Source: an uncultured Rhodospirillales bacterium (GTDB lineage: Bacteria; Pseudomonadota; Alphaproteobacteria; Acetobacterales; Acetobacteraceae). From it: a DNA stretch of 63,962 nucleotides. Below, piece after piece: positions 14,285 through 49,842 of this stretch. The number at the start of each line of letters is the position of its first letter. Within the stretch, counting starts at the first letter, position 1. The notes beneath the pieces were generated by a model. It was not told where the DNA came from and made no database searches. It worked only from the letters and a program-made list of their open reading frames with translations. The stretch covers positions 1-63,962 of the forward strand of contig CAIPLM010000288.1 in assembly GCA_903865895.1 (NCBI GenBank), in the 5' to 3' direction. The translations under genes were made by a program, and so were the position numbers.

Positions 14285-14423
14285 CTGCTGCGCTGGAAGT
14301 GCATTCGGCATCGGTTCAATTTTTGAATTAGCCTTTGGGTAACGCGAACGCTGGCAGAAATGAGCAGATCTGGATGGCAGGCCGGTAGATGTGGAAAGGT
14401 TGCCTCACGTAATTCGATGCGCG

Positions 14424-15344
14424 ATGCCGGCAGTTGGCACTGATATCTTCAAGCTCGGCCTGCTCGGCGCGGGCCGGATGGGCCGCACCCATCTGGCGGC
14501 CATTGAGGCTAGTGGGGCGGTGCGCATAACCGCGATTGCCGACCCGTCCCCGGGTGCCGCCGTGTTGGCTGGGCCAGGTCGCGTGGTGCATGCCGATCTC
14601 GATGGGCTGCTAACTGAACCGCTCGACGGTATATTGATTGCAGTGCCGAGCACGCTGCACGGCGAGGCCATCGCGCGCATCGCTGCCGCCGGCCTGCCGA
14701 TCCTCTGTGAGAAGCCCTGCGGCGTCACTGCCGCGCAGGCCCGCGCCCATGCCGGCATCGCGGCGGCCGCCGCGATCAAGCTCCAGGTCGCCTATTGGCG
14801 GCGTTTCGTGCCCGACCTCCAGGCCCTGCAGGCGCGCATCGCCGCTGGCGCGCTCGGCAACCTCCTCCATATCGCCTGCCACCAGTGGGACGCAGCGCCC
14901 CCCTCCGCCGCGTTTCGCGCCGGAAGCGGCGGGATTTTCGTCGACATGGGGGTGCATGAATTCGACCAGATCCGCTGGCTCACCGGCCAGGAGATCACCT
15001 CGATCCACACCGCTCGCGCCGGTTTCGCGCCGGAGGAATGCGCGCAGTCCCTTGCCACGCTCTCCGGCGGCGCCACTGCGCTGATCTCGCTCGGCCAGCA
15101 TTTCCCACTTGGCGATGTCTGTCGTGTCGAGGTATTTGGCACGCGGGACGCCGCGGAATCCCGCTTCTTGTGGCCGCCCGCCGCGGACGCCGCTTACCAC
15201 GATGCGCTGCGGCGCCAGGCCGAGGCCTTCGCCGCCTGGGTGCGCGGTGGTCCCGCGCAGGGCGCTACCGCTGAGGATGCCGTCGCCGCGCTTGAGGCGG
15301 CCGAGCGGGCGGGGATCACACCGTCGCCAGTACCCGATCGATGA
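14424..15344 (+). CDS. Gfo/Idh/MocA family NAD(P)-dependent dehydrogenase
   Basis: 306 residues from ATG 14424; an in-frame ATG at 14391 would add 11 residues. The Rossmann motif GLLGAGRMG is at 12-20, EKPCGV carries the family's catalytic Lys, and GGIFVDMGVHEFD supplies the conserved Asp/His. It resembles myo-inositol 2-dehydrogenase-type sugar dehydrogenases. The gene is convergent with the sulfoquinovosidase operon and overlaps its last gene by 29 bases. A role in oxidising the released sugar is plausible but not shown. The 139 bases upstream contain only a short TTCAA/TTGAA repeat. Confidence 0.85.
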   Translation: MPAVGTDIFKLGLLGAGRMGRTHLAAIEASGAVRITAIADPSPGAAVLAGPGRVVHADLDGLLTEPLDGILIAVPSTLHGEAIARIAAAGLPILCEKPCGVTAAQARAHAGIAAAAAIKLQVAYWRRFVPDLQALQARIAAGALGNLLHIACHQWDAAPPSAAFRAGSGGIFVDMGVHEFDQIRWLTGQEITSIHTARAGFAPEECAQSLATLSGGATALISLGQHFPLGDVCRVEVFGTRDAAESRFLWPPAADAAYHDALRRQAEAFAAWVRGGPAQGATAEDAVAALEAAERAGITPSPVPDR

Positions 15345-16656
15345 AGGCCTGCGTGGCACCGAGATAGGCGGAGGGGGCGGTCATCGCATCGATGGCCGGG
15401 CGATCGAGACGGGAGGTGACCTCCGTGTCGCGCATCAGCGCATCGGCGAGCCGGATGCCCTCGGCGAGGGCCACGTCGCAAGCGTGCTTCACCACGTGAT
15501 GAGCGGGCTCGCGGCCGAGATGGGGGGCGAGGCCCATCATCACTGCCTCGGCGACGATCAGCCCGCCGGTGAGGTCGAGGTTGCGGGCCATGCGGGCGGC
15601 ATCCACCACCATGCCCTCGGCGATGGTGCGGGCATGGGCGAGGGCGCCATGGGTGAGCACGAAGGCCTGGGGGAGAGCGAGGTATTCGGCCTGCCAGGGG
15701 CCGGTGGCGCGCTCGTGGTCCTGCGCCATGGCGGATTGCATGAGGGGAACGAGCTGGTGCACCGCGCGGCTGCTGGCGAGGATGTATTCCGACGCGATGG
15801 GGTTGCGCTTCTGCGGCATGGTGGAGGACTGGCCGCGGCCGGGGACGTAGGGCTCGAACACCTCGGCGACCTCGTTCTGGCAGAGCAGGATGATGTCAGT
15901 GGCGATTTTCGACAGGCTGCCGCAGATGAGGCCGAGGAAGGAGACCGCCTCGGCGAGACCGTCGCGGCAGACATGCCAGGGCGCGGCGGGGGCGGCGAGG
16001 CCGAGTTCCTCGGCGAGGCCGAGCATGGTCGGCAGGCCCTGGGCGCCGAGTGAGGCGAGCGTGCCGGCGGCGCCGCCGAACTGGACCACTTCCACGCGCG
16101 GGCGAAGTTGGTTGAGGCGCTCGCGATGGGCGAGCAAGGGCATCAGCCAGGTCGCGCATTTGAGGCCGAAGGTGACGGGCAGGGCGTGCTGGAGATGGGT
16201 GCGCCCGGCCATCACCGTGTTGCGGTGTTCGGCCGCGTTGCGGGCGAGGCCGGCGATGACGGCATCGAGCTCGGAGGCGATGAGGGTGAGGCCGGATTTC
16301 ACCTGGAGCACCGTCGCGGTGTCCATGATGTCCTGCGTGGTGGCGCCCCAATGGGTCCAGGCCCCGGCGGCGCCGGCGGCGCGCGACAGGCCCTTCACCA
16401 CGCCGACCACGGGGTAGCCCACATTGCGGACGGAGGCGGCGAGTTCCGCGGTATCGAGGTTTTCGTAGCGCGCCGCGGCGGTGATGGCATCGGCGGCGTC
16501 GGCTGGGATGATGCCAAGCCGCGCCTGCACGCGGGCGAGCGCGGCCTCGACGTCCAGCATGTTCTGGAACCAGGTGCATTCATCGAAAATCGCGCGCGCG
16601 GCGTCCGAGCCATAGAGCGTGCCGAGGACGGAGGAGTCGGCGGGGTTGATAGGCAT
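15316..16656 (-). CDS. fumarase/aspartase-superfamily lyase (adenylosuccinate lyase / CMLE-like)
   Basis: 446 residues. The three conserved regions are present: WTHWGATTQDIMDTA (100-114), GRTHLQHALPVTFG (151-164) and GRGQSSTMPQKRNP (273-286), whose Ser provides the catalytic base. Members eliminate or cycloisomerise carboxylated substrates. Closest in look are 3-carboxy-cis,cis-muconate cycloisomerase and adenylosuccinate lyase, but no protocatechuate or purine genes are near. It begins two bases after the sulfoquinovosidase stop and is the last gene of that operon. A role in carbon-sulfur or C-O elimination during sulfosugar breakdown is a guess. The longer frame reaching 17841 is a shadow. 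Confidence 0.85.
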   Translation of the reverse strand: MPINPADSSVLGTLYGSDAARAIFDECTWFQNMLDVEAALARVQARLGIIPADAADAITAAARYENLDTAELAASVRNVGYPVVGVVKGLSRAAGAAGAWTHWGATTQDIMDTATVLQVKSGLTLIASELDAVIAGLARNAAEHRNTVMAGRTHLQHALPVTFGLKCATWLMPLLAHRERLNQLRPRVEVVQFGGAAGTLASLGAQGLPTMLGLAEELGLAAPAAPWHVCRDGLAEAVSFLGLICGSLSKIATDIILLCQNEVAEVFEPYVPGRGQSSTMPQKRNPIASEYILASSRAVHQLVPLMQSAMAQDHERATGPWQAEYLALPQAFVLTHGALAHARTIAEGMVVDAARMARNLDLTGGLIVAEAVMMGLAPHLGREPAHHVVKHACDVALAEGIRLADALMRDTEVTSRLDRPAIDAMTAPSAYLGATQAFIDRVLATV

Positions 16657-16658
16657 GG

Positions 16659-18653
16659 TCAGATCCTCGGGAGGGATTGGAATAGGGCGGTGAAGGGCGA
16701 GCCCGCGCGGTAGAAGACGGGCGGCAGGCCGATCGGAGCGGGGATGGTGATGTGGCTTCCGCCGACATGCGGCTTGCCGGTCCACAGATGGTGCCAAATG
16801 GCGCCGGTGGGGAGGTAGACCCGCCATTCGGTGGCGCCGGCGGCGTGGACGGGGGCGACGAGGAGGTCGGGGCCGAGGAGGTAGTGGTCCTGGATGGCGT
16901 AGGTGGCGCGGTCGTCCTCGTGGTGGAGGAAGAGCGGGCGTTGCAGCGGCAGGCCGGTGGCGGCGGCTTCGGCGGAGAGGGTGCGGAGGTAGGGGGCCAG
17001 CGCGCGCCAGATGCGGGTGAAGCGGGCGAAATGGGCGAGGACGGTGGGGTCCTGGTCGACTTGGAGGTTGTCGTCCGGCCGGTTGCCCTCGTGAGTGCGC
17101 ATCATCGCGGTGAAGGCGGACATTTCCGACCAGCGCATGATCAGCTCGGCGGTGCGGATATTGCCGAACAGGGAGGTGTAACCGCCGACGTCGCTGTGGT
17201 GGTACGGGTTGCCGAGCAGGCCGGCGGAGAGGGCGCCGCAGATCACGGTTTGCAGGCCGTCGTGGCGGGAGAAATCGACGGACTGGTCGCCGGCCCACAG
17301 CATGGTGGAGTGGGCCTGCACACCGGTGAAGCCGGCGCGCATCCAGAAGAGTTTCGGCTCCGCGGCGCCGGTGATGGCGGCGGCGTTGACTTCGGACCAG
17401 ATGGTTGGCCAGGCGTTGTGCATGACGGCCGCGTCGCCGTTGGCGAGCACGGCGTCGATGGGGAGGTATTCGCCGAAATCGGCCATCCAGCCGGCGATGC
17501 CGATGCCCATCATGTTGTGTTTGAGGATGCGCTCGATCCACCAAGCGCGGGCTTGGGGGAGGGTGAAATCCATCACCCCGCAGCGGAATTCGCCGAATTG
17601 GACGCGGTAGGTTTCGCCATCGGCATTGCGCGCGAACAGGCCGAGCGCTTCGGCCTCGGGGAACAGGGCGCCGTCGTCGCAGAGATAGGGGCTGCAATAG
17701 GCAAGGAAGCGGATGCCGCGATCGCGGAGTTCGGCGATGCGGGCGGGGAGATCGGGGTAGCGCGCGGGGTTCCACTGCCAGTCCCAGAACAGGCGGCGGC
17801 CGAAGCTGGTTTGGCGGATGCCGGCCCAATCCTCGCACCACAGGGCGGAGACGGCGGCGCCGGCCGCGAGGTATTTTTCGAGGCGGGTGAAGCTCTCGGC
17901 GCCGGCTTTGAGGCCGATCACCGCGCCGTTGTAGAGCCAGTCCGGCAGTTCCGGCGGGCGGCCGAAGCGGGTGGAGACGTGGCCGACCAGATCGATGAAA
18001 TTGTCGGCGGCGAGGAATTCCAGGCGGGAGGGGGCGGCCCAGACCTCAACCTCATGGAAGCCGGGATCGCGGAAATCCAGCACGCTATAGGCGGTGCTCT
18101 CCAGGTGCACGGCGAGGCGGCGCGAGGTGAGGAAGCTCGGCTGTGGGTAGTTGGTGGTCCAGTAATCCCCGCCGGCCTTGCCGGTGACGTCGGATTGCCA
18201 GGTTATGTAGGTGGATTTGTCGCGCCCGACGCCGGGTTCACTGGTCCAGATCGGGAAGCGGCGGCCGCGGAGGTCGAAGTAGGACATCTGCTCTCCGCCG
18301 CCCCAGACATGCTCGTCCGCTTCGGCGTGCAGGCGGAACCAGAAGCGGTTCCAGCGCGGATCGGCCGCCGCCAGCGTGAGGGTGAGGCCGTGGGTGGTTT
18401 CGGCGAGGTCGAAGACCAGGGCAGGGTGGTCGGCGGGGTGGCGGCGCAGGGTGAGGCGGCTGCCGTCGATGGTCGCGTGTTCCAGCGGCGCGCGCTCGCT
18501 GAGGCGGTCGGAGATGTCGAAATTGCCGTGGTGCATGTCCATCCGCCCCTCGCCGCGCCCGGCGAAAAAGGCGGGGGCGTCGGCGGTGTGGCGAAGGATC
18601 AGGCGGCCGGCGAGGTGGATCTCGAAGCCGGCCCCGAACGGGACCAGTGCCAT
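16659..18653 (-). CDS. yihQ: GH31 sulfoquinovosidase
   Basis: 664 residues (E. coli YihQ about 678) aligning throughout with YihQ. The nucleophile is D392 in GWMADFGEYLP and the acid/base is D456 in MLWAGDQSVD. The residues that read the sulfonate are all in place: K249 (IGLKAG), E274 (WCEDW), R287 and W290 (SFGRRLFW), and Y492 (VGGYTSLF). That is the K-E-R-W-Y set of Agrobacterium-type enzymes; gammaproteobacteria have Q-Q-R-W-Y. The spacing R-(3)-W and D-(36)-Y matches YihQ. The enzyme releases sulfoquinovose from its glycosides, such as sulfoquinovosyl glycerol from plant sulfolipid. No signal peptide is present, so it acts in the cytoplasm after uptake by the adjacent importer. Confidence 0.93.
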   Translation of the reverse strand: MALVPFGAGFEIHLAGRLILRHTADAPAFFAGRGEGRMDMHHGNFDISDRLSERAPLEHATIDGSRLTLRRHPADHPALVFDLAETTHGLTLTLAAADPRWNRFWFRLHAEADEHVWGGGEQMSYFDLRGRRFPIWTSEPGVGRDKSTYITWQSDVTGKAGGDYWTTNYPQPSFLTSRRLAVHLESTAYSVLDFRDPGFHEVEVWAAPSRLEFLAADNFIDLVGHVSTRFGRPPELPDWLYNGAVIGLKAGAESFTRLEKYLAAGAAVSALWCEDWAGIRQTSFGRRLFWDWQWNPARYPDLPARIAELRDRGIRFLAYCSPYLCDDGALFPEAEALGLFARNADGETYRVQFGEFRCGVMDFTLPQARAWWIERILKHNMMGIGIAGWMADFGEYLPIDAVLANGDAAVMHNAWPTIWSEVNAAAITGAAEPKLFWMRAGFTGVQAHSTMLWAGDQSVDFSRHDGLQTVICGALSAGLLGNPYHHSDVGGYTSLFGNIRTAELIMRWSEMSAFTAMMRTHEGNRPDDNLQVDQDPTVLAHFARFTRIWRALAPYLRTLSAEAAATGLPLQRPLFLHHEDDRATYAIQDHYLLGPDLLVAPVHAAGATEWRVYLPTGAIWHHLWTGKPHVGGSHITIPAPIGLPPVFYRAGSPFTALFQSLPRI

Positions 18654-18655
18654 GC

Positions 18656-19561
18656 TCAAAGTGCCGAGATGGCGAACCGCATCGTGCCGCGCCGCTGCCC
18701 GCCCGGGGGCAGCACGAACACGCCGGGCGGCGGCGTGCCGTCCATCCGGTTCAACCCGTCGGTGATGTTGGTCACTGGTTCGATGGCGAAGAAGTCCTTG
18801 CCGTCGGGGATGTAGACGATGAGGTTGGCGAAAATCGGGTCCGCCGTGACGTCGAGCGCGTAGCCGCGGTCGGGGTAGGTGATGCGGGCGGTGCCGGTCC
18901 AGCCGGTGAAGCAGTTGTCGATGAAGTGTTGGCCGATGGGGCGCGGCGATGAATGATCGCGCTCGGGAGGGACAAGCGTGTGGTCGATCGGCAGCATGTC
19001 TGGCCCGTTGCGTTGCAGGCCGGTGGCGGCGAATTGCAGCGTGGCCTCGGGGCTGCGGGGGAAGAAGGGGTGCTGGCCGAAGGCGAGGGGGGCCGGCGCG
19101 TCGTGGCGGTTTTCCACCACGCAGGTGATCTCCAGCGCGTCTTCGCTCAGGCGGAAGATCTGCTCGGCATGGAATGCGAAGGGCCATAGCTCGCCGCCCG
19201 GGTAGTCGAGACTGAGGGTGACGGCGTCGCCGTCCTCCTGCGCCGTCCAGGGCAGGCGCCAGCCGGCGCCGTGGATGGCCCAGCCGTTCATGAGGTCCGG
19301 CAGGTCGTAGCTCTGCCCGGCATGGGTGAAGCGGCGGCCGGCGACGCGGTTGGAATAGGGGAAAAGCGGGTAGCTCGCGAGATCCCGCGGGCTGTCGGCC
19401 TGCATGGCGTTGGGCAGGGGCAGGCGGAACATCGGCTCGCCGTCGCGCGTCCAGGAGACCACGCCGCCGCCGAAGCCGGGGGCCAGCACCAGTTCGGCCG
19501 CACCGGACACCACTTTCACCACCTCATGCCGCTTCGGCATGTTCATCCCAAGCATGCTCAT
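18656..19561 (-). CDS. aldose 1-epimerase (mutarotase) family protein
   Basis: 301 residues from ATG 19561, which overlaps the upstream permease stop (ATGA). Galactose-mutarotase fold: FPYSNRVAGRRF holds the conserved Asn-Arg, NGWAIHGAGW the first catalytic His, and FGQHPFF the second. Mutarotases interconvert sugar anomers, which is needed because the glycosidase downstream releases one anomer and dehydrogenases or isomerases often need the other. Sulfoquinovose clusters elsewhere often carry one (YihR type). It ends two bases before the sulfoquinovosidase start. Confidence 0.88.
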   Translation of the reverse strand: MSMLGMNMPKRHEVVKVVSGAAELVLAPGFGGGVVSWTRDGEPMFRLPLPNAMQADSPRDLASYPLFPYSNRVAGRRFTHAGQSYDLPDLMNGWAIHGAGWRLPWTAQEDGDAVTLSLDYPGGELWPFAFHAEQIFRLSEDALEITCVVENRHDAPAPLAFGQHPFFPRSPEATLQFAATGLQRNGPDMLPIDHTLVPPERDHSSPRPIGQHFIDNCFTGWTGTARITYPDRGYALDVTADPIFANLIVYIPDGKDFFAIEPVTNITDGLNRMDGTPPPGVFVLPPGGQRRGTMRFAISAL

Positions 19562-20385
19562 CCCTTTACCGCCCCTTGCGCCAATCCGCGCACCATGGAG
19601 CGCTGCACGATGGCGAACAAGGCCAGCACCGGTAGGATGGAGAGGATGCCGCCCGCGGTCAGCGCGCCCCATGGCAGCTGGAATTCACCGACCATCAATT
19701 GCAGGCCGACCGGCCAGGTACGGCTGCCGGAGGAGGTCGTCAGCATGAGCGCGAACAGATACTCGTTCCAAGCGGCGATGCCGATGAACACCGCGCAGGC
19801 CCATAGGCCGCCCTGCACCAGCGGCAGCACGATGCGCACCATGGCGCCGAAGCGGGTGCAGCCGTCAATCCGCGCGGCCTCCTCGAGCTCCAGCGGAATG
19901 GCGTCGAAGAAGCCCTTCATCATCCAGATGAAGATCGGCAGCAGGAAGGCGGTATAGGCGAGCGCCAGGCCGATCCGGCTATCCAGCAGCCCGGCATTCC
20001 GCATGATCACGAAGAGCGGGATGATCATCAGCACCACCGGGAACATGCGCAGGATCAGGAAGAACAGCAGCAGGTTTTGCCGCCCGCGGAACTGCATGCG
20101 TGAGAGGCTATAGGAGGCCATCGTGCCGGCGATCACGCAGATCACCACGGTGAAAAACGTCGTCACCGCCGAGTTCCACATCAGCGCCGGCAGGTTCGAC
20201 TGGGTCCAGATCGCGATGTAGTTGTCGAGCGTCGCCGGGCTCGGCAAAGCGAAGTGGTTGGTGATGATGTCGCGTTCGGCGCGCAGCGAGATGTTGAACG
20301 CCCACAAAACCGGGAAGGCTGCGAACAGCGTGAAGCCAAGGGCGACGAGATAGACGGCGATGCGTTCGAGCGGGCTGCGGCGCAT
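19558..20385 (-). CDS. carbohydrate ABC transporter permease, MalG/UgpE type
   Basis: 275 residues, six predicted helices. The EAA coupling loop is LEEAARIDGCTRFGAMVRIV, followed by the LP and the WNEYLFALML helix typical of MalG-like permeases. It pairs with the permease encoded one base upstream. Place in the operon suggests transport of sulfoquinovose or its glyceryl glycoside, as for the SmoEFGH system. No MalK-type ATPase is in this cluster. Confidence 0.92.
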   Translation of the reverse strand: MRRSPLERIAVYLVALGFTLFAAFPVLWAFNISLRAERDIITNHFALPSPATLDNYIAIWTQSNLPALMWNSAVTTFFTVVICVIAGTMASYSLSRMQFRGRQNLLLFFLILRMFPVVLMIIPLFVIMRNAGLLDSRIGLALAYTAFLLPIFIWMMKGFFDAIPLELEEAARIDGCTRFGAMVRIVLPLVQGGLWACAVFIGIAAWNEYLFALMLTTSSGSRTWPVGLQLMVGEFQLPWGALTAGGILSILPVLALFAIVQRSMVRGLAQGAVKG

Positions 20386-20386
20386 C

Positions 20387-21283
20387 TCAATCCGCCTTCA
20401 GCGCGTTGGAATAGCGCACGTAGAGCCAGGAGCAGGCCATCAGCAGGGCGAACATCACCACGCTGAGCGCCCCCGCATAGCCGAAATTGAACTCGCGATA
20501 GGCCTTCTGGAAGGCGTAGAGGGACAGCACCTGGGTGGAGCGGCCCGGCCCGCCGCCGGTGAGGATGAGCAGCAACTCGGGCGAGTTCATCAGGCTGATC
20601 GCCCGCAGCACCACGGAGGCGACGATGATCACGCGCAGTCCGGGGAGCTGGATATGGATGAAGCGGTGCCAGAAGCGCGCGCCATCCACCGCGGCGGCTT
20701 CGTACAGCTCCTGAGGCACGCCTTTCAGCCCGGCCAGCAGCAACAGGCCGAAGAAGGGGAAGCCGTGCCAGGTTTCCACCGCGATCGCCGCGGGGAGCGC
20801 CCAGTTGGGGTCGGCGAACCAGGCCTTGAAGCCGCCGATTACGCCGAGCCCCTGCAAGGCCGCGTTGATCACGCCGAGCCGGCTATCCAGCATCAGCGCC
20901 CAGAGATTGCCGGCGACCACCAGCGGCAGGAACCAGGGCAGCAGGATCACCACCGACATGAAGCGGAAGCCGGGCAGCTCGTAGTCCAGCGCCACCGCGA
21001 TGATCAGCCCGCAGATGAGTTCCAGCACCACCGTGCCCACCACCCAGATGGCGGTGTTTTCCAGCGAGATCCAGAACACCGGATCATCCCACAGCGCCAG
21101 ATAATGCCGCAGCCCGACATAGCCGGTGCCGAGGTCCATCCGGTTGAGGCGCATCTGGCGGAAGGAGAGGTCGATGCCGGAGATCGTCGGGTAGATGATC
21201 ACCGCGAAGACGAGCGCCAGCGCCGGCAGCAGCAGCAGCCAGGGGAAGGCCTTGGTGTCGGAGATGGCGGAGAGGCGGCGCAT
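20387..21283 (-). CDS. carbohydrate ABC transporter permease, MalF/UgpA type
   Basis: 298 residues with six helices and the EAA loop YEAAAVDGARFWHRFIHIQL followed by P. The ATG at 21283 shares one base with the stop of the upstream enolase-superfamily gene (TGATG), so translation is coupled. With the MalG-type protein it forms the membrane channel for the substrate bound by the 22578-23819 binding protein. Confidence 0.92.
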   Translation of the reverse strand: MRRLSAISDTKAFPWLLLLPALALVFAVIIYPTISGIDLSFRQMRLNRMDLGTGYVGLRHYLALWDDPVFWISLENTAIWVVGTVVLELICGLIIAVALDYELPGFRFMSVVILLPWFLPLVVAGNLWALMLDSRLGVINAALQGLGVIGGFKAWFADPNWALPAAIAVETWHGFPFFGLLLLAGLKGVPQELYEAAAVDGARFWHRFIHIQLPGLRVIIVASVVLRAISLMNSPELLLILTGGGPGRSTQVLSLYAFQKAYREFNFGYAGALSVVMFALLMACSWLYVRYSNALKAD

Positions 21284-22392
21284 CAGACGATGGCGAGCGC
21301 CGTTTTCTCCACCCAGGCCCAGTCCGGCGCGAAGCCGAGGCCGGGGGCGTCGGGGATGGTGAAGGCGCCATTCTCGATCTTCAGCCCGTGCGAGCCGTGG
21401 CGCAGATTGGCGATCTGCTGGGAGGAGATGACGAGTTCCTCGTAATAGTCGTTATTGGGGATGGCGGCGCAGAGCTGGGCCTGCGGCATGCCCATGCCGT
21501 GCACCTGCGCCTTCATGCCGTGGCATTCCGCGAGATGGGCGATTTTGAGCGCCCCGGTCATGCCGCCCTTCATGTGCGGGTTGGTGCGCAGCATGTCGAG
21601 CGCGCCGGCCTGCACCCAGGAGGCGGCGTTCCAATGCGCGCCATCGGAGGTCTCGGCGGCGAGCACGGGGATATCCAGCGCGTCGCACAGCTTGCGGTAG
21701 GAGCCGAGCTCGAACTCGCGCATCGGCTCCTCGTACCAGTAGAAGCCCTCCTCCTCGAGCCGACGGCCGAACCACAGCGAGGTCACGTAGTCCCACCCCG
21801 CCGAGCCGTCGAACATCAGTACCGCGTCGGGCCCGGTCCATTTACGCAGGTTACGGCAGAGCTTGGCGTCCTCCTTGGCGTCACCCCAGGCGTGCAGCTT
21901 GAAGGCGGTGAAGCCGACGTCGATGCATTCCTTGATGTGGCGCTCATACTCGCCCATCGTGTCCCAGGTGACGGTCGAGGCGTAGACCGGCACCACGGGA
22001 TTATGGCCGCCCAGCATCTGCCAGAGCGGCATGTTCGCGCGCTTGGACTTGAGGTCCCAGATCGCCAGATCGACCAGGCCAAGGGAGTGGAGCTGCATTT
22101 CCTCCAGCCGGTCGAGCTCCCAGATGCGGTGCCAGAGATACTCGCTGTTGAGCGCGTCGAGCCCGATCAGCTCCTTCAGCCGGCGCTCCACCAGCGAGCA
22201 CACTGCCTCGCCGCGGCCAGTTTTCACCGCGCCGGTGATGCCCTCGTCGGTTTCGATACGCAGGATGGCGGATTTCGGCACCTTGCCTTTGGGCGTGCCA
22301 TCCCCGGAGCCGGGGAGGCCCGCCCGCCAGCGGAACGTATCACCGACCCAGGGGTCCTCGACGAGATAGCCCTTGATATCGGTGATGCGCAT
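21283..22392 (-). CDS. enolase-superfamily sugar-acid dehydratase (mandelate racemase-like)
   Basis: 369 residues from ATG 22392; the frame upstream only reads through a repeat. Metal ligands are D195 (MFDGSAG), E221 (YEEPM) and E247 (AAETSD), numbered as in mandelate racemase. The base motif on strand two is K165-L-H167 rather than KxK, and H298 (QVHGMGM) sits where the second general base or acid is expected. Members dehydrate sugar acids to 2-keto-3-deoxy acids or racemise carboxylates. Lying between the binding protein and the permeases of a sulfoquinovose-type operon, it is a candidate 6-deoxy-6-sulfogluconate dehydratase. The specific substrate is inference. Confidence 0.85.
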   Translation of the reverse strand: MRITDIKGYLVEDPWVGDTFRWRAGLPGSGDGTPKGKVPKSAILRIETDEGITGAVKTGRGEAVCSLVERRLKELIGLDALNSEYLWHRIWELDRLEEMQLHSLGLVDLAIWDLKSKRANMPLWQMLGGHNPVVPVYASTVTWDTMGEYERHIKECIDVGFTAFKLHAWGDAKEDAKLCRNLRKWTGPDAVLMFDGSAGWDYVTSLWFGRRLEEEGFYWYEEPMREFELGSYRKLCDALDIPVLAAETSDGAHWNAASWVQAGALDMLRTNPHMKGGMTGALKIAHLAECHGMKAQVHGMGMPQAQLCAAIPNNDYYEELVISSQQIANLRHGSHGLKIENGAFTIPDAPGLGFAPDWAWVEKTALAIV

Positions 22393-22420
22393 TGATCGGT
22401 TCCTCTGGTGAAAGGCAAGT

Positions 22421-22577
22421 GGAAGGAAGGTCTCCTTTTTTGAAAAAAAGGAGCAAAAAACTTTTATCACTTTGCTTTATGCCGCTCCCATCCATCCCGA
22501 GAGGCAAGCCAACGGCAACGAAGTGATAAAAAGTTTTTTTGCTTCTTTTTGTTCACAAAAAGAAGTGCTTCCCTTCC
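22421..22577. repeat. nested-hairpin repeat element A
   Basis: 157 bases between the stop of the binding protein and the start of the enolase gene. Outer arms GGAAGGAAG (22421-22429) and CTTCCCTTCC (22568-22577) enclose three stems. Hairpin 1 is CTCCTTTTTT/AAAAAAGGAG (22432-22441, 22444-22453). A long central pair is 22454-22474 with 22519-22541, sharing CAAAAAAC, TTTTATCACTT. Hairpin 2 is CTTCTTTTTG/CAAAAAGAAG (22542-22551, 22556-22565). The architecture is the same as element B at 27358. It is AT-rich in a GC-rich genome. It may attenuate expression of the downstream genes or stabilise mRNA ends. Confidence 0.85.
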
Positions 22578-23819
22578 TTAATTCAAAGCCGCGTCGAGCC
22601 CCTTGAGCATCGCATCCGTCGCCTTCTCCGGCGTGCTCTGGCCGACCAGGATCTTCTGGAACTCCGGCAGCACCACGTTCTGGCTCCACCCGGCCATGCC
22701 GACGAAAGCCGGCGGCAGGGAGCCGAAGCCGATGGTCTCGGCGGCGGCCTGGTAGAGCGGGTTGCCGGTGATGCGGGCGTCCTTGGCGATCACGGTGGAG
22801 GCGGGGAAGTAGCCGGTCTCCTCAAGGAAGGCGATCGAGGGGTCGGTCTCGCCCCAGAAGCTGATCCAGTCCCACGCGGCGTCGATGTTGTCGGCCTTCA
22901 TGATGCCGTTGAAGAGATAGGCGAGGCGGGCGACGCGGGCGGCCGGGCCGGCGGGCTTGGCGGCGGTGCCGAACTGGCCGGGCTTGAAGAAGCGCACCAT
23001 CTCGGTCAGCGAGCCGGTGTGATGCCAGGTCATCGCGGTCTGGCCGGTCTTGAAGCCCTCCATGATCTGGCGGAACCCGTCATTGGTGACCGACGGCGGG
23101 CAGACCTTATGGACGGTGTGCAGCTCCGAATACCACTTCACCGCGGCCAGCACCTTGGCCTTGTCGGTGGCGTTCTTGCCATCTACCACGAACTTGGAGC
23201 CGAAGGCCTCCATGAGGTCGATCAGGTAGGCAGCGCCGCCGGGGCCGGCGCGCATGCCGAAGCCGTAGCGGTTCTTGCTGGGGTCGGTCAGTTTCTTGGC
23301 GACGGTGACGAATTCTTCGAGATTCTTCGGCGGGCCGGCGATGCCGGCTTCCGCGAACCAGTCCTTCCGGTAATAGGTCCAGTCGACGAAGGTGAAGGCG
23401 GGGACGCCGTAGATCTTGCCGTTGAGCGTGCTGCCCTTCCAGCGGTCATCCGGGTAGTTCACCTTGTTGGACCAGGCATTGACCCGGCTGGTGAGATCGA
23501 CCAGCCCGTTCATCGCCATCATGTCCGGCAGGCGCTCGGCGGCGACCATCGAAACGTCGGGCCGGGTGTTGGCGACCACGGCGGCGGTGAACTTCGCCAT
23601 GTATTCGGGGTTGGGGATGTTCTCCTGCTGGAGGGCGATCGCCGGGTATTTCTTGGCGAACAGCTCCATCACCCGCTTGAGGCCGGCGAATTCCTCCTGA
23701 CTGGTGAAATGGTGCCAGTAGACCACCTTGCCGGAGCCGGCGGCCTCGGCATCGTGCAGTCCGGCGGCGGCAGCGGCAGCGAGGCTGGCCAGTAATGTGC
23801 GGCGCGAGAGGTCGTTCAT
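22578..23819 (-). CDS. sugar ABC transporter substrate-binding protein, family 1
   Basis: 413 residues. The N-terminus MNDLSRRTLLASLAAAAAAG carries a twin-arginine-like SRRTLL and an export signal. The mature part follows the family-1 plan: VVYWHHFTSQEEF, GKIYGVPAFTFVDWTYYRKDWF, and FKTGQTAMTWHHTGSL in the middle. It delivers substrate to the two permeases downstream. Context (sulfoquinovosidase, mutarotase) makes sulfoquinovosyl glycerol or sulfoquinovose the favoured ligand, like SmoF of Agrobacterium, but I cannot check the sulfonate-binding residues from memory. It is separated from its permeases by repeat A and the enolase gene. Confidence 0.9.
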   Translation of the reverse strand: MNDLSRRTLLASLAAAAAAGLHDAEAAGSGKVVYWHHFTSQEEFAGLKRVMELFAKKYPAIALQQENIPNPEYMAKFTAAVVANTRPDVSMVAAERLPDMMAMNGLVDLTSRVNAWSNKVNYPDDRWKGSTLNGKIYGVPAFTFVDWTYYRKDWFAEAGIAGPPKNLEEFVTVAKKLTDPSKNRYGFGMRAGPGGAAYLIDLMEAFGSKFVVDGKNATDKAKVLAAVKWYSELHTVHKVCPPSVTNDGFRQIMEGFKTGQTAMTWHHTGSLTEMVRFFKPGQFGTAAKPAGPAARVARLAYLFNGIMKADNIDAAWDWISFWGETDPSIAFLEETGYFPASTVIAKDARITGNPLYQAAAETIGFGSLPPAFVGMAGWSQNVVLPEFQKILVGQSTPEKATDAMLKGLDAALN

Positions 23820-23846
23820 GGTGTCGTCTCCCAGGGTTGTTTTGGT

Positions 23847-24986
23847 TCAGCTGAGCGTGATCGGCGCCGGCGGCGGGCCGGCGGGGCGAAGTCCTTCGGC
23901 GACGGTGGCGACCGCATGCTCGCGCCGCGCCACCTCGGACAGGCCGAGCCCGTGGCCCGGCACATCCGGCGCGATGGCGTAGCCGGCCTCGAAGCGGATC
24001 GGCGTATCGGTGAGGTGCTTATAGTTCTGGAACGAATACTCGATCCATTCGGCCTCCGGCAGCGCGGCGGCGATGTGCACGCCCACTTCGAGGAAGGTGT
24101 TGCCGAGCGTCACCTTCACGCCGTACTCGGCGGCCAGCCAGCAGGCGCGCATCACGTCAGACATTTTGCCGTGGACGTTCATGTAGTCCACCGCGCGGGC
24201 CTCGATCAGGCGGCGCTTGCCGCTGAGGTCGAGATATTCGCCGGTGTTGATGTGGGTGAAGGGCAGGGCTTCCGAGACCTGGCGCAGCCCCTCGAAATCA
24301 TCGCGCAGGCAGGGATCCTCGATCCACAGGATCTCGTGGCCGGCATCGTGATAGGCGTGCAGCGCGCGGATGGCCTCCTTCGGCGTCCAGGCCTCGTTGG
24401 CGTCCACCATGATGACCGGGTTGGGGCCGACGGCCTCCTTCAGCAGGCGCAGGCGCTTGAGGTCCCAGGCGAGGTCGGGGTGGCCGATCTTGATCTTGAA
24501 GGCCTCGAAGCCCATCGCCTTGGCCTTGGCGAAGAACTCGACGTAGTGGGCGTCCGAGAGGTGGAAATCGAGGCCCGAGGCATAGGCGCGCACCTTGGGG
24601 TTGCTGCCACCGAGGAAGCGGTAGAGGGGCAAGCCGGCCTGCTGGGCGGCGAGGTCCCACAGCGCCTGGTCGATCGCCTCGCCGAAGCCGTGTGAGAGGG
24701 CGCGCTGGTTGCCGCCGCGCGGGCGGCCGATGCGGTGGATGAGGGTGGAGGGATGCTGGCCATTGAGACCGGCCCAGGCCTCCGTGCGGAAGCTGCGTTG
24801 CAACTCGCCGAGATTGGGCTGGGCGTAGAACAGGTTGAGCATCCAGCCAGTGCCGGTGCGTCCGTTCTCGTCGTGCAGCTCCAGCACCGAGACGTTGCAG
24901 ACATCGAACCCGACTTGCGAGTCGCCGATCATGCGGTCCCGCTTGAAGGCAAAGCGTGTGATGGTGAAATCTCGGATGGTCGTCAT
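23847..24986 (-). CDS. enolase-superfamily protein (mandelate racemase/muconate lactonizing type)
   Basis: 379 residues. The acid-base pair is K164-I-K166 and the metal ligands are D195 (VDANEAW), E223 (IEDPC) and E250 (NTGEY). H304 in VGVHIAAALPEAEW is a possible third catalytic residue. This KxK arrangement is standard for mandelate-racemase subgroup racemases and dehydratases, and differs from the KxH enzyme at 21283. The pair may therefore do two different steps on the same carbon skeleton. The gene starts 55 bases after the acylase stop and ends 27 bases before the binding protein start, so it probably belongs to the same transcript. Confidence 0.85.
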   Translation of the reverse strand: MTTIRDFTITRFAFKRDRMIGDSQVGFDVCNVSVLELHDENGRTGTGWMLNLFYAQPNLGELQRSFRTEAWAGLNGQHPSTLIHRIGRPRGGNQRALSHGFGEAIDQALWDLAAQQAGLPLYRFLGGSNPKVRAYASGLDFHLSDAHYVEFFAKAKAMGFEAFKIKIGHPDLAWDLKRLRLLKEAVGPNPVIMVDANEAWTPKEAIRALHAYHDAGHEILWIEDPCLRDDFEGLRQVSEALPFTHINTGEYLDLSGKRRLIEARAVDYMNVHGKMSDVMRACWLAAEYGVKVTLGNTFLEVGVHIAAALPEAEWIEYSFQNYKHLTDTPIRFEAGYAIAPDVPGHGLGLSEVARREHAVATVAEGLRPAGPPPAPITLS

Positions 24987-25041
24987 TGCGGCCGGTTCTC
25001 CCCTGTCGAACTATTATAACCTTTCGCCGCGCGGCGTCACC

Positions 25042-27336
25042 TCATCGCTTGGGCTCCAATCGCACCCGCGTTTCGGCAATCGCCTCGATCGCCGCCGTGC
25101 CAAAAGCGAGTGGGAAGGTCTCGCCGGCGCTCCATTTGGCCGCGAGGTCCGCGTAGTGCGGGTCACCGGGAATGCCGGACTGGCCGGGGGCGTTGATGGC
25201 GCGGCTGGCATCCCAGTTTCCGACATCGACGACGGCGCGGAACAGGGCGCCGCCGGAGACCGCGGGGCGGGCGATGGTGGCCCACCAGCGGGCATTCACC
25301 GTGGCGCCATCGCCGCCCGAGACCGGGCCGGAGACATTGGGCGAGGGCAGGGCGGGAAGTTGGGCGGCGAGGGGGTGATGCAGGTCAAGCGCGTGGAGCG
25401 TCCCCCAGGCCCAGCTTGCCGGGTCCGGCCCGCGGGCGGCGGTGAGGGAGGCGACGGCATTGCGCAGGGCGGCCAGCACCATCGCGTCCCGCGTAGCCAC
25501 CGGCTCCGCCCCGAAGCGGGCATCGGGCGCCAGCATCGCGTCCATCAGGACCTGCGGATGGATGGTGCCGACGAGCTCCCGCGCCGCCGCGGGCACCAGC
25601 ATTTGGCGCACCGGCCCTTGCAGCGAGGCAAGCCAGAAGGCGTAGAGCGCCGCGGCCGGACTCTCGGCGGTCATCCGCCGGTCCCACGCGCGCAGCATCG
25701 CCAGCTCCGCTTCGAGCCCGGCTGCGGTCAGCCCGTCCAGCAGCGGCAGCATCCGCGCGGCCCGGCCGGAGAGCACATCCTGTTGCAGGGCGTCGCTGTC
25801 GGCGAGGCTGTGGCGGGTCTGGCCGCCCAGCACCTCGGCGATGCGGCGGTAGCGGTCATCAGAGATCCACTCGAAGCTGATTTTCCTGATGGCATAGGGA
25901 TAACCCGCCGGGAAGGGCATCTGGTTGGCGCTGGCGATCCAGCCGCGCGGCGGGTTGTATTCGCCGGGCATGTCGGCGACCGTGAGGATGCCCGTCCACT
26001 GGTAGCCCCCCTCCGCCGGCACCGGCAGCAGCCCGTCATGGCGCGGCCGGATCGGCACCCGCCCGGCGGCCTGCCAGCCGATATTCCCGTCAACATCGGC
26101 ATACATGTAGTTGCTGCCCCACACCGCCGTGTCGAGCGCCTTGCGGTATTCGGGCCAATCCCGCGCCAGGATCACCGGCACATATTCCAGCGCCACCGCG
26201 CCGCCGGGATCGAGAAACACCGAGCGCAGCGCGATCGCCTGGCCGGGCGCTTCATGGATGATCGGCCCGTCCGGCGTGAGGCCGATCTCGATCGGCACAG
26301 CCTCGCCGCCACGCACCGCGATGATTTCCCGGACGCGGGTGATCGCCCGCCATCCCGTGGCAGTGCGGTATTCGGTGGCGGCTGCGTTCAGGGTGAGGAG
26401 GAACAGATCCTCCTGGTCAATCTGGAAATCGGTGCGGCCAAAGGCGATGCGGTCATTGTGCCCGAACTGGAACCCCGGCCGGCTCGCCGGTCCGGCGCCG
26501 ATCGCATCAAGCCCTGGCGCCCTTAGATGGGTGATGAAGCGCGGCCCCGGCACGCTGAAGGCGAGATGCGGATCATTGGCCAGGATCGCCCGCCCGGTGC
26601 TGCTCATCGAGGGCGCGATCACCCAGGCATTGCTGCCGTTGCGGGCGTCGATATCGTCGAGCCCGGCATGGCGCACGGCGCGGCTGAAGGGCAGGGGGGC
26701 GGTGAAGAGTTCGTAGAGCGCCAGCGCATCGGCCGGCAGACGGCACGGGTCGAGCCCCTGCGGCACGCTCGGCGTCCAGTCCGGTTCCAGCTTCTGCATC
26801 AGCGCGTCAGCGCTGAGGTGCCCGCGGCAGGCGAGGCGCACCCGGCGCAACTCGCCCCGCACATTCGGCCCGGTGCCGCGCATCCGCAGAAGGTCTTCCG
26901 CCTCCCAAGGCTCGGGCTGCATGGCGAGTGCGCGGAATTCTGGCGGCAGCAGCGCGGGGGCGGCCAACACCTCGGCGATGCGGGCATTGATACCGCGCAC
27001 CCAGGCCTGGGCGATGCCCTTCACGCGGGGATCGTAGAGCCCCCATTCCGCCGTGAGATCGCCACGGAACAGCAGGGTGCGCGCCGCCTTGTCATAGGGC
27101 ACGAAGGCGCTGCCGAGGCTGGCGGCCAGCCGACCGAGCATGCGGCGGCGGCCGATATCCATCTGCCACAGCCGCGCCGTTGCCGCCGCGTAGCCCTGGC
27201 CGAAGAACGCGTCCTCGATGCTTGCCGCCGTGATGTGCGGGATGCCGTTGGTATCGGTGACGATCTCGACCGGCGCCGATACCCCGGCGACCACGCGTGT
27301 TTCAGCCTGCACCTGGCCTCCGATCAGCGATTGCAT
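25042..27336 (-). CDS. penicillin-acylase-family Ntn hydrolase, probably exported
   Basis: 764 residues from ATG 27336. The precursor is an alpha chain followed by the beta-chain nucleophile in ARNGSNAWVIAP; autocleavage would free S235. IVTDTNGIPHI near the start, GFQFGHNDRIAFG and GNWDASRAINAPGQSG at the end are family landmarks. Such enzymes hydrolyse amides (beta-lactam side chains, acyl-homoserine lactones, N-acyl amino acids). An in-frame ATG at 27498, overlapping the previous gene's stop, would add 54 residues encoded by repeat B and supply KR plus a leucine-rich hydrophobic stretch ending VQA, a credible signal peptide. The true start is uncertain. Confidence 0.85.
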   Translation of the reverse strand: MQSLIGGQVQAETRVVAGVSAPVEIVTDTNGIPHITAASIEDAFFGQGYAAATARLWQMDIGRRRMLGRLAASLGSAFVPYDKAARTLLFRGDLTAEWGLYDPRVKGIAQAWVRGINARIAEVLAAPALLPPEFRALAMQPEPWEAEDLLRMRGTGPNVRGELRRVRLACRGHLSADALMQKLEPDWTPSVPQGLDPCRLPADALALYELFTAPLPFSRAVRHAGLDDIDARNGSNAWVIAPSMSSTGRAILANDPHLAFSVPGPRFITHLRAPGLDAIGAGPASRPGFQFGHNDRIAFGRTDFQIDQEDLFLLTLNAAATEYRTATGWRAITRVREIIAVRGGEAVPIEIGLTPDGPIIHEAPGQAIALRSVFLDPGGAVALEYVPVILARDWPEYRKALDTAVWGSNYMYADVDGNIGWQAAGRVPIRPRHDGLLPVPAEGGYQWTGILTVADMPGEYNPPRGWIASANQMPFPAGYPYAIRKISFEWISDDRYRRIAEVLGGQTRHSLADSDALQQDVLSGRAARMLPLLDGLTAAGLEAELAMLRAWDRRMTAESPAAALYAFWLASLQGPVRQMLVPAAARELVGTIHPQVLMDAMLAPDARFGAEPVATRDAMVLAALRNAVASLTAARGPDPASWAWGTLHALDLHHPLAAQLPALPSPNVSGPVSGGDGATVNARWWATIARPAVSGGALFRAVVDVGNWDASRAINAPGQSGIPGDPHYADLAAKWSAGETFPLAFGTAAIEAIAETRVRLEPKR

Positions 27337-27357
27337 GGAAAGCAGAAGTAAAAGTAA

Positions 27358-27483
27358 GCAAGCGCTTCTTTTTGAAAAAAGAAGCAAAAACTTCTTATCC
27401 GTTTGCTTCGCGCCCACCGGGGAGAGCGCGAAGCAAACGGACGAAAGTTTTTTGGTTCTTTTTTTCAAAAAAGAACCGCTTGC
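27358..27483. repeat. nested-hairpin repeat element B
   Basis: 126 bases, the same plan as element A. Outer arms are GCAAGCG (27358-27364) and CGCTTGC (27477-27483). Hairpin 1 is CTTCTTTTT/AAAAAGAAG (27365-27373, 27376-27384). Central arms are 27385-27413 with 27426-27454, including a perfect 15-base match CCGTTTGCTTCGCGC. Hairpin 2 is GTTCTTTTTT/AAAAAAGAAC (27455-27464, 27467-27476). It lies between the two acylase genes. Unlike A, its central stem has a GC-rich top. Confidence 0.88.
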
Positions 27484-27494
27484 CTGCTCCTCCC

Positions 27495-29825
27495 TCATCC
27501 CGGCAGCAACCGAATCACCAGCTCCGCCGCCTCATCGACGGCTGACTTGGAAAAAGGCAGCGGCACATATTCCCCCGCCGCCCATTTCGGCGCGAGATCG
27601 TCGTAGTGGGACGAGCGCGGATCGCCGGATTGGCCGGGGGCGTTGATGCACATCGAGGCATCCCAGTTGCCGACGTCGCACACCATGCGGAACGAGGCCC
27701 CGGCGGTGACGCGGAAATCGGAGCCGCGATAGGTGGCGTTCATCGGCGTGGAGCCGGAACCGCCCTTAGGCAGCGGGCCGACGCTTTTGAAATCCGTCAT
27801 CAGGTCGGCGAGCGGGTGTTCGAAATAGCCGTGATGCAGCTTGCCCCAGCTCCACCAGGCGGTGTGCTCGCCCTGGCGCGCTCGCATATCCACCACCGCG
27901 GCGCGCAGTGTCTCCAGCAGCATGGCGTCGCGATCACCGAGGCGCGGATCGGCGGCTTCGAGCGCGGCGAGGATGGTGTCCATATCGCCCGGCACCATCA
28001 GCGGCCGCAGGTCGGGATCGGGGCACAGCTTATCGAGCACCGCGGGCTTGAGGCACTTGGTCCACCACACCTCGAACAGCGCGGCGCCGGCGCTGTCGCG
28101 GCCGAGGTGCTCGTCCCACTCGGCCAGCAGGTCGAGCCCGGTCTTGATGTCGGCCTCGCCCGTGAGCGGCGCCAGCAACGCCTTCAGACGGCGGCCGGGG
28201 ATGGAGACGTCATCGGTTTGCAGCGCCATGGAATCGGCCAGGGTGTGGGCGGGTTGGGTGTCCAGCACCTCGTGGATGCGGCTGGTGCGCGAGCGCTCGG
28301 CCCATTCGAAGCCGAGCTTGCGCTCGCGGTAGGGGTAGTTGTCCGGCAGGTTCATCTCGTTCGCGGTGGCGAAATAGCCCTTGGCCGGGTTCACCTCGCG
28401 CGGCAGGTCCCCGAAGGGGTGGAAGCCCTGCCACTCGTAGCGCCCATCGCCGGGCACCGGCAGTAGCCCGTCCCAGTTCGGCCGGATCGGCGTGCGCCCG
28501 GCGGCATACCAGGCGATATTGCCGGCGACATCGGCATAGACGTGGTTGACCGAGGGGGTCGCCCAGCCCTCAAGCGACTTCTCGTATTCCGCCAGCGAGC
28601 CGGCCTGCATGTAGCCGAGGCTGGTCAGGTAGGCCGAGGCCCCCGGCTCGAACCACACCGAGCGCACGGCATAGGCCAAGTTACCCTCGGCATCCTCGTA
28701 GACCACCGGGCCGTGGCGGGTGAATTTCAGCGTGACGGTCTGGTCCGGCTGGCCGCGCACCGCGATGGTCTCGGTTACCACCCGCATCTCCTCCCAGCCC
28801 TCGCCGTAGCGGTAGCGGTCGGCGTTCTCCGGGTCGGTCGCGTAGACGTAGAGGTCCTCCTGATCCATCGGGAAGATGGTGAGGCTGAAGGCGCAATGGT
28901 CGTTATGGCCGAGCGAGACGCCGGGCACCGCGGGCTCGCCGGCGCCGATCACGTCGATCCCGGGGCCGGTGAGGTGAACCAGCCAGCGCAGCGAGGGCAA
29001 AGCATGGGCGCGGTGCGGATCGCTGGCGAGGATCGGCCGCCCGGTCTCGGTGCGCGAGGCGGCGACGGCCCAGTTGTTGGAGCCTTGCAGGTAGACGTCG
29101 CCGAGATCGTCCACCCGGGTCCAGTTCCACGCATTATCAAGCGTGGCCATCATGCGGGCATGGCTGAAATCGAGCCGTGCGGTGGCGAGCTTGAAGACGT
29201 CCAACACCTTGGGCGGAATCGCGGCCCAATCGACGCCCTCGGGGATCTCGGTCTCCCATGGCGGTTCGATGGAGCGGCGGGCGAGATCGACGGCGAGATC
29301 GCCCTTGGCCAGCACGCGGGCGCGAGCGACCTCGGAGAGCACGTTGCGCACGAGGCCGTGGCTGCGGATTCGCACCGCATCCTCCGCCGTCCAGCGCTCG
29401 GGCACTGTGCCCATGGCGGCGAATTCCGGGGCGAGCAAAGCAGGCTGCGCGGCGCAGCGGTCGATCCAGGCATTGATGCCGGCGGCGAAGGCCTCGGTGA
29501 TCTCCCGCGCATCGGGGATGGCGTATCCGGCCCACTCCGCCGCCATATCACCGCGATACAGGAACAGGCGGGAGGCGCGATCCTGTGCCAGGAAGCCCGG
29601 CCCGAAATCGGCGGCGAGCCGCCCGAGGCCGCGCTTGCGCCAGAGATCGAGCTGCCACAGCCGCTCGCGCGCCGCGGCGAAGCCCTGGGCGAAGAACACG
29701 TCATGCCGGGTGGCGGCGCGGATATGCGGGATGCCGTTACGGTCCATCACGATCTCCGCCGGCTGTTCGAGGCCGGGGGTGGCGATGTTAATTGTGACAG
29801 GACTGGGGGGCGCTGTATCGGGCAT
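27495..29825 (-). CDS. penicillin-acylase-family Ntn hydrolase, no signal peptide
   Basis: 776 residues. VMDRNGIPHI is near residue 27, the nucleophile is S249 in YLQGSNNWAVAA, then VSLGHNDHCAFS and a C-terminal GNWDASMCINAPGQSG. It is a clear paralogue of the product of 25042-27336, sharing layout and many motifs, but it starts MPDTAPPSPVTINIATPG with no export signal. It may act in the cytoplasm while its neighbour acts outside. The gene is the first of the minus-strand block and is divergent from the second peptide importer at 29937, which could bring in its substrate. Confidence 0.88.
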   Translation of the reverse strand: MPDTAPPSPVTINIATPGLEQPAEIVMDRNGIPHIRAATRHDVFFAQGFAAARERLWQLDLWRKRGLGRLAADFGPGFLAQDRASRLFLYRGDMAAEWAGYAIPDAREITEAFAAGINAWIDRCAAQPALLAPEFAAMGTVPERWTAEDAVRIRSHGLVRNVLSEVARARVLAKGDLAVDLARRSIEPPWETEIPEGVDWAAIPPKVLDVFKLATARLDFSHARMMATLDNAWNWTRVDDLGDVYLQGSNNWAVAASRTETGRPILASDPHRAHALPSLRWLVHLTGPGIDVIGAGEPAVPGVSLGHNDHCAFSLTIFPMDQEDLYVYATDPENADRYRYGEGWEEMRVVTETIAVRGQPDQTVTLKFTRHGPVVYEDAEGNLAYAVRSVWFEPGASAYLTSLGYMQAGSLAEYEKSLEGWATPSVNHVYADVAGNIAWYAAGRTPIRPNWDGLLPVPGDGRYEWQGFHPFGDLPREVNPAKGYFATANEMNLPDNYPYRERKLGFEWAERSRTSRIHEVLDTQPAHTLADSMALQTDDVSIPGRRLKALLAPLTGEADIKTGLDLLAEWDEHLGRDSAGAALFEVWWTKCLKPAVLDKLCPDPDLRPLMVPGDMDTILAALEAADPRLGDRDAMLLETLRAAVVDMRARQGEHTAWWSWGKLHHGYFEHPLADLMTDFKSVGPLPKGGSGSTPMNATYRGSDFRVTAGASFRMVCDVGNWDASMCINAPGQSGDPRSSHYDDLAPKWAAGEYVPLPFSKSAVDEAAELVIRLLPG

Positions 29826-31508: not shown

Positions 31509-31514
31509 GCCACC

Positions 31515-33341: not shown

Positions 33342-33352
<11 letters not shown>
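32513..33352 (+). CDS. ABC transporter permease, DppC/OppC type
   Basis: 279 residues starting MRALRRLMRDRALVTG; the ATG overlaps the previous stop (ATGA). Conserved LGTDRMGADLYSRLLFGAR is the family signature, and the coupling loop is EAAIAMGASPLRVMVLHVLP. The C-terminal GFNLLGDGLRDAIDPR motif is the standard end of DppC proteins and is also seen in the first importer. Confidence 0.92.
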
Positions 33353-35301
<1,949 letters not shown>

Positions 35302-35305
<4 letters not shown>

Positions 35306-46057: not shown

Positions 46058-46058
46058 C

Positions 46059-48108: not shown

Positions 48109-48109
48109 A

Positions 48110-49815: not shown

Positions 49816-49842
49816 GCCCGGCGGCGGCCCCCGGCTTTCGCC

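Follow-up and report, generated by a model that had tools for sequence, protein, structure and literature searches.

The stretch analysed here (the window) comprises 63,962 nucleotides, positions 1 to 63,962 of contig CAIPLM010000288.1 (assembly GCA_903865895.1), from an uncultured Rhodospirillales bacterium of the Acetobacteraceae. Its minus strand carries, from position 24986 down to 15316, a packed, operon-like run of eight co-directional open reading frames, the seventh of which encodes an enzyme of glycoside hydrolase family GH31. Judged from its sequence, this enzyme is a cytoplasmic sulfoquinovosidase (SQase) and very probably hydrolyses alpha-sulfoquinovosides. The features of the run are given below in order of transcription; MR2, SBP (solute-binding protein), MR1, permF and permG are labels coined in this analysis.

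23847–24986, minus strand: MR2, enolase-superfamily (mandelate-racemase group) enzyme (PF13378; PDB 2oz8, 440 bits)
22578–23819, minus strand: SBP, CUT1 solute-binding protein (PF01547/PF13416)
22413–22555, no strand: imperfect palindrome between the SBP and MR1 genes (sequence scan)
21283–22392, minus strand: MR1, second enolase-superfamily enzyme (PF13378 and PF02746; PDB 1rvk, 176 bits)
20387–21283, minus strand: permF, CUT1 inner-membrane permease (PF00528)
19558–20385, minus strand: permG, CUT1 inner-membrane permease (PF00528)
18656–19561, minus strand: aldose 1-epimerase (mutarotase) family protein (PF01263, 118.6 bits; PDB 3nre, 113.7 bits)
16659–18653, minus strand: GH31 sulfoquinovosidase by sequence, 664 amino acids (phmmer against the PDB, residue alignment)
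15316–16656, minus strand: lyase of the Fumarase/CMLE superfamily (PRK09053, 490.8 bits, under its cut-off of 595)

The open frames lie where an earlier reading made from the sequence alone had placed them, and the GH31 gene is, as also proposed there, closely coupled with the CUT1 importer and the mutarotase-family gene. The permG stop and the mutarotase start overlap as ATGA, 2 nucleotides separate the mutarotase stop from the GH31 start, and another 2 separate the GH31 stop from the lyase start; junctions are tight at the downstream end of the run. Between SBP and MR1 there is a gap of 185 nucleotides that holds the palindrome. Compared with G001, the nearest relative found, all eight genes have pN/pS values of 0.09–0.22, with mostly synonymous differences, and look to be under purifying selection (G and L numbers are our handles for genomes, contigs and loci). 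Promoter and terminator scans and searches with Rfam and for tRNAs gave no signal above chance, and the single promoter-like site upstream of MR2 (25013–25040) is within the number expected from shuffled sequences.

The GH31 enzyme

In a phmmer search of the PDB, the best matches of the GH31 protein were 5ohy (974 bits, E 5.7e-292) and 5ohs (971 bits, E 2.5e-291), both named alpha-glucosidase YihQ, of which we take 5ohs to be the Agrobacterium SQase. These were followed by 8r56, 6pnr and 5aed, named YihQ or Sulfoquinovosidase, and below the SQase matches the score drops to about 148 bits for the next GH31 structures. The sequence-only reading had assigned the protein all five sulfonate-reading residues of SQases as well as both catalytic Asp residues, and alignment to the SQase structures confirms the assignment. 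K249, E274, R287, W290 and Y492 share columns with the K, E, R, W and Y of 5ohs, and D392 and D456 stand at the catalytic Asp positions, while 8r56 and 6pnr have Q and Q at the first two positions and retain R, W and Y (QQRWY). The sulfonate-binding role of this set of five and the respective functions of the two Asp residues are assumed here as general background on SQases; the literature passages searched for such roles contained no residue data.

Of 90 SQase-type locus copies with more than 50% identity, among them some genes fetched twice, 88 have the complete set of seven residues (KERWYDD). The other two copies are the halves of one contig-split gene (G008), which match wherever the residues are present. 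None of nine more distant GH31 matches has the set, several of these alignments covering the positions only in part. The window protein is 64% identical to the GH31 protein of Agrobacterium smo loci and has no signal peptide by eye, and no second GH31 match occurs in the draft genome (5.69 Mb). Judged by identities, an SQase-type gene is present in seven of 60 genomes, the window's own counted (G000, G001, G003, G004, G008, G014 and G022).

The lyase gene ends the run, and in G000, G001, G003 and G004, the four members of the genus examined that have an SQase, it lies beside or near the SQase gene; its second-best NCBIfam match is the 3-sulfopropionylcysteine synthase XcbD. As the gene is a common one, with homologues in 105 of 200 family genomes, among them G002, in which no SQase match was found, a position next to the SQase need not imply a role in the use of sulfoquinovose (SQ). 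The lyase is probably not SQ-specific, and it was rejected as a candidate SQ-specific or sulfonate lyase.

Importer and enolase-superfamily enzymes

The likeness to known SQ clusters that the sequence-only reading had seen in this coupling of SQase, mutarotase and importer was borne out only in part. The N-terminus of the SBP, MNDLSRRTLLAS, resembles a Tat signal by eye, and its match to the SBP of Agrobacterium, SmoF, is weak (E 2.4e-6); the best match to SmoF anywhere in the genome is 26%. The mutarotase belongs to the aldose 1-epimerase family and scores 38.3 bits against the PRK15172 model, presumably YihR, whose cut-off is 251. The term breakdown operon could not be upheld as it stood for the run as a whole: domain and curated-model scans recognised no described SQ breakdown gene among its members, the four core enzymes of the sulfo-Entner–Doudoroff (sulfo-ED) route (SQ dehydrogenase, lactonase, sulfogluconate (SG) dehydratase and KDSG aldolase) are absent from the operon, and general domain scans of the operon genes recognised no signature enzyme of the sulfo-EMP, TAL, TK or SDO routes.

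MR1 and MR2, on which the sequence-only reading made no remark, are dehydratase-like members of the enolase superfamily, probably of the sugar-acid-dehydrating type. MR2 has a KxK motif (K164, K166), metal-ligand positions D195/E223/E250, and His272 and Asn296 at the positions that, as we assume for these and the other residue roles, hold the usual Asp/His dyad of the mandelate-racemase group. None of these residues varies across the 20 aligned sequences, which include close relatives, so that the usual Asp/His pair is replaced in MR2. In MR1 the corresponding residues are a KxH motif (K166, H168), D196/E222/E248 and H299, and all 11 aligned sequences share them. Neither protein passes the curated dehydratase cut-offs, and a literature search on 2oz8/Mll7089, which belong to the MR2 family, and on 1rvk returned no published function for either clade. 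Relatives of MR1 at 42–49% identity in Paenibacillus, Embleya and Streptomyces (L205–L208) adjoin CUT1 importers, and the Paenibacillus gene also lies near SDR, amidohydrolase-like and mutarotase-like genes, some of these roles being assigned by eye.

In the reading that we put forward, and to which we give an even chance, SQ-glycosides would be imported, cleaved and anomerised by the products of this run, and SQ would then follow an unrecognised, perhaps Entner–Doudoroff-like route with an enolase-superfamily dehydratase. The SBP would capture alpha-sulfoquinovosides such as sulfoquinovosyl glycerol, and permF and permG would import them using a shared ATPase encoded elsewhere. The GH31 enzyme would hydrolyse them to SQ, a step well supported by its sequence, and the mutarotase-family protein may equilibrate the SQ anomers. 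A dehydrogenase encoded elsewhere would oxidise SQ to the sugar acid, and MR1 or MR2 might, hypothetically, dehydrate this acid in place of the IlvD/EDD-type enzyme of the standard sulfo-ED route. Taken by its parts, an importer that serves SQ-glycosides appears about evenly balanced, and an enolase-superfamily sulfogluconate dehydratase would be a minority reading.

Distribution with and without the sulfoquinovosidase

MR2 is present in eight of 200 family genomes and three of 385 class genomes, the window's own genome being in both counts, and in three of 50 SQase-bearing genomes searched, a set capped short of nine further loci. The complete five-gene cassette (MR2-SBP-MR1-permF-permG) occurs in G002, G003, G218, G022, G130, G255, G429 and G079 in addition to the genus of the window. 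The seven-gene block from MR2 through the mutarotase to GH31 is the same in G001 and G004, of the same genus, and its order recurs at 52–80% identity in a second genus (L020; L020, G079 and G581 are one and the same contig). Among the eight genomes known to contain both MR2 and an SQase, the two genes lie within 7 kb of each other in five (G000, G001, G004, G581 and G583) and apart in three (G003, G022 and G600). In G002, homologues of the lyase and of PGA2, a penicillin-acylase-type gene upstream of the run, are about 1 kb apart (L195, 5144–9805) with no part of the SQase block between them, suggesting either insertion or loss of the block.

Agrobacterium cavarae (L022) provides a second setting. 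Here a homologous importer (ATPase-permG-permF-SBP-GntR; SBP 60% identical to the window's) and MR2 (58%) adjoin smoA-smoB-smoC-smoD-SQase, where the smo names, smoA and smoD included, are our assignments by order, likeness and general background. The genes smoEFGH are missing from the interval between smoD and the SQase gene, where the standard Agrobacterium locus (L026) has them, and no SmoF orthologue was found in the A. cavarae genome, whose best match, at 36%, is level with a paralogue that two control genomes carry in addition to their SmoF (97 and 100%). This locus is the strongest indication that an importer of this type can act in SQ uptake. Rhizobium terrae (G600) likewise has a smo locus without smoEFGH beside its SQase, with a different ABC importer downstream and the cassette on another contig. 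The block order kept in a second genus, together with the A. cavarae importer beside smo genes that lack smoEFGH, favours the SQ reading.

The principal alternative is that the importer together with MR1 and MR2 takes up and dehydrates some ordinary sugar or sugar acid (of the L-fucose, L-rhamnose or galactonate kind) as a module of general use, to which SQase and mutarotase were appended, with SQ being handled by scattered enzymes or yielding only glycerol. We consider this a serious contender that nonetheless falls short of an even chance. A number of observations speak against a cassette devoted to SQ, many of them also for this alternative. The operon itself contains no ATPase gene. The SQase gene follows the cassette only in G079, G000, G001 and G004, some stretches stopping at contig ends, and the cassette is found without an adjoining SQase in G002, G218, G130, G255, G429, G022 and G003. 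In G003 the SQase and lyase genes, 1.2 kb apart, share one contig, and the cassette and mutarotase lie on another among other neighbours; in G022 the cassette is present, yet the SQase adjoins a SmoF-type importer (57% to SmoF). Of the plasmid records, 14 contain MR2 and 35 an SQase, and none contains both at the limits used; on plasmids of Rhizobiaceae, Microvirga and Martelella, MR2 may or may not be accompanied by this importer. Several SQase-less neighbourhoods contain genes of kinds characteristic of ordinary sugar-acid pathways (SDR, AKR, amidohydrolase or FAH). The neighbours of MR2 vary: L125 has an AKR and an amidohydrolase, L128 an SDR and an FAH gene, Martelella (L127) an aldose epimerase and an SDR, Rhizobium jaguaris (L144) an SDR and an AKR, and Microvirga (L126) an HpcH aldolase. 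The SBPs encoded next to MR2 in Martelella and R. jaguaris are not close to that of the window, falling outside the set with at least 45% identity to it. The MR1 relatives of Streptomyces, Embleya and Paenibacillus have no SQase near them within the stretches shown. Finally, a Rhizobium SBP with no SQase in its fetched flanks (about 9 kb on each side) shares 91% identity with that of A. cavarae, so that the cassettes linked to an SQase do not form a clade. What a general module accounts for less readily is that an SQase adjoins the cassette in at least two separate lineages, in one of them beside smo genes without smoEFGH, and that an identical gene order is conserved across two genera.

The SQ reading also has a stronger form, namely a further SQ route in which a sulfoquinovoside CUT1 importer unrelated to SmoFGH works together with MR1 or MR2, rather than an IlvD-type enzyme, in the dehydration of 6-sulfogluconate. 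We regard this form as unlikely. If it were true, SmoEFGH would have given way to this type of importer in A. cavarae, and carriers of the SQase-less cassette would scavenge free SQ or sulfogluconate.

Downstream pathway, flanking genes and known systems

Enzymes for the fate of SQ were searched for across the genome with proteins from the SQase loci of other bacteria, whose roles we assumed from cluster context and general background, and the same queries were calibrated on 80 SQase loci. SmoC had no match in the genome at E<=1e-20, compared with 50–100% identity in 25 of the 80 loci. The IlvD-type SG dehydratase reached 48% at best, with 50% in the SQase-less G002, against 62.6–100% in 34 of the loci. 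For the SQ-dehydrogenase-like SDR query, the genome's best match was 53% (52% in G002), and the loci gave 52–100%, except one at 33%, in 46 of 80. The best match to the HpcH aldolase (38%; 34–100% in 35 of 80 loci) is on another contig than the SQase, beside another CUT1 importer; an internal stop reported for it may be the end of the gene, and the called frame is open over 236 amino acids. An SDR gene adjoins the SQase in G022, L095 and L043 and is one gene away in G008, an arrangement from which the window differs.

By this test, SmoC and an SQase-type IlvD appear absent from the genome at the levels searched. The absence of the entire sulfo-ED route was considered and dropped, as only the IlvD and SmoC queries discriminate in the calibration. 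With IlvD below the range of the SQase loci, the dehydratase is the sulfo-ED step most clearly missing, and hence the place where MR1 or MR2 could act. The same figures bear on the possibility that a known pathway, sulfo-SMO or sulfo-ED, is completed by genes elsewhere in the genome. The SDR at the lower edge of its range and the aldolase inside its own would allow for this, whereas the missing SmoC, the lack of a SmoF orthologue, the low IlvD match, the similar IlvD and SDR values in SQase-less G002 and the surroundings of the aldolase make it very improbable.

The least probable account, on which we place next to no weight, is that the GH31 protein is an SQase-like enzyme for the glycoside of a related sulfosugar, such as a sulfofucosidase feeding a sulfofucose-type pathway with an enolase-superfamily dehydratase: passages of PMC12421959 describe candidate sulfofucolytic clusters in which a PF13378/PF02746 dehydratase occurs with an ABC importer and, in some, with an aldose 1-epimerase, no candidate sulfofucosidase having been identified, but the 64% identity to the smo-locus enzyme, the sharing of all of KERWY with a known SQase structure and the lack of SfcH-, SfcD- and SfcE-type genes in the operon speak against it.

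An SQase operon without any described breakdown gene points to an undescribed or rearranged fate of SQ in this family of Alphaproteobacteria, and two enolase-superfamily clades, one with a solved structure (2oz8), as well as one importer become testable SQ candidates. At abstract level, the output of SQ, a sugar of plant sulfolipid, is given as about 10 billion tons a year. The sulfo-ASMO, ASDO, EMP, ED, TAL and TK routes make up the short list of a 2026 review, and the word "enolase" is absent from its text (PMC12890257). A passage on SQ-assimilating taxa names Rhodospirillaceae and does not cover these genes (PMC13372026). Among the papers listed for these subjects, none looked to link SQ clusters with mandelate racemase, the enolase superfamily, penicillin acylase or Acetobacteraceae.

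Around the run, tandem penicillin-acylase-type (Ntn hydrolase) genes, PGA1 and PGA2, occupy 25042–29825 on the minus strand. Both G008 (L106, where an SDR is present too) and L063 likewise have genes of this type near a mutarotase and an SQase. They were considered as sulfolipid deacylases and rejected: PGA2 homologues are present in 40 of 200 family genomes, and in G094 PGA2 is near a peptide ABC transporter and an SDR in a fetched stretch without an SQase. The same set lies divergent from PGA2 in the window, where a peptide-type ABC transporter and an SDR (PRK07231, above cut-off) span about 29937–36042 on the plus strand. A second A/T-rich imperfect palindrome (27369–27470) falls in the 5' portion of PGA1 as called, a frame that probably begins further downstream in reality; this palindrome and the one at 22413–22555 are related to each other and stand out in the G+C-rich window. 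The Gfo/Idh/MocA gene at 14391–15344 was rejected as a GH188-like partner, being on the opposite strand and having no homologue in the fetched neighbourhoods of G001 and G004. An Ldh2-family dehydrogenase at 146–1201 (minus strand) passes PRK10098 and scores 210 bits as an L-sulfolactate dehydrogenase against a cut-off of 500, so that it is no clear sulfolactate enzyme. Further along, an MsnO8-family luciferase-like monooxygenase (45011–46973, minus strand) has as neighbours an HSL-type esterase and, at 47041–51225, a UgpC-type CUT1 transporter.

Compared with known systems, the window enzyme shares full-length homology, KERWY and the catalytic Asp pair with the GH31 SQases (5ohs/5ohy, 5aed YihQ, 8r56 and 6pnr), with no difference in the residues checked; its gene context differs. 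Passages of the GH188 paper describe such SQases as often included in SQ pathway clusters (PMC10755693). As in the Agrobacterium smo cluster, a cytoplasmic SQase is encoded downstream of a CUT1 importer, but the importer of the window is not orthologous to SmoEFGH, and its operon has two enolase-superfamily enzymes and no SmoA, SmoB or SmoC. With sulfo-ED clusters the run shares the SQase, the mutarotase-family gene that some of those loci contain and a possible dehydratase function, although the four core genes are not in the operon and its dehydratase candidates come from another superfamily.

In the sulfofucolytic ED pathway of Paracoccus wurundjeri (SfcH, SfcD, SfcF, SfcE), the enolase-superfamily SfcF (PF13378/PF02746) dehydrates sulfogalactonate, the genome having no IlvD-type SG dehydratase (PMC12421959); this is a precedent for the reaction proposed here for MR1 or MR2. 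Likened by Pfam family, that enzyme and its ABC importer may have counterparts in the window, as may the aldose 1-epimerase of some related clusters in the mutarotase; no glycosidase is identified there, and the window operon has no genes of the SfcH, SfcD or SfcE types and no SDR, lactonase or HpcH aldolase. A further parallel to the importer is the Rhizobiaceae cassette (ATPase-permG-permF-SBP-GntR and MR2), which has its own ATPase and GntR and no MR1. Its MR2, SBP and permeases are about 55–65% identical to those of the window, and an SQase adjoins it in one (L022) of the six fetched (L022, L125, L128, L140, L142 and L143).

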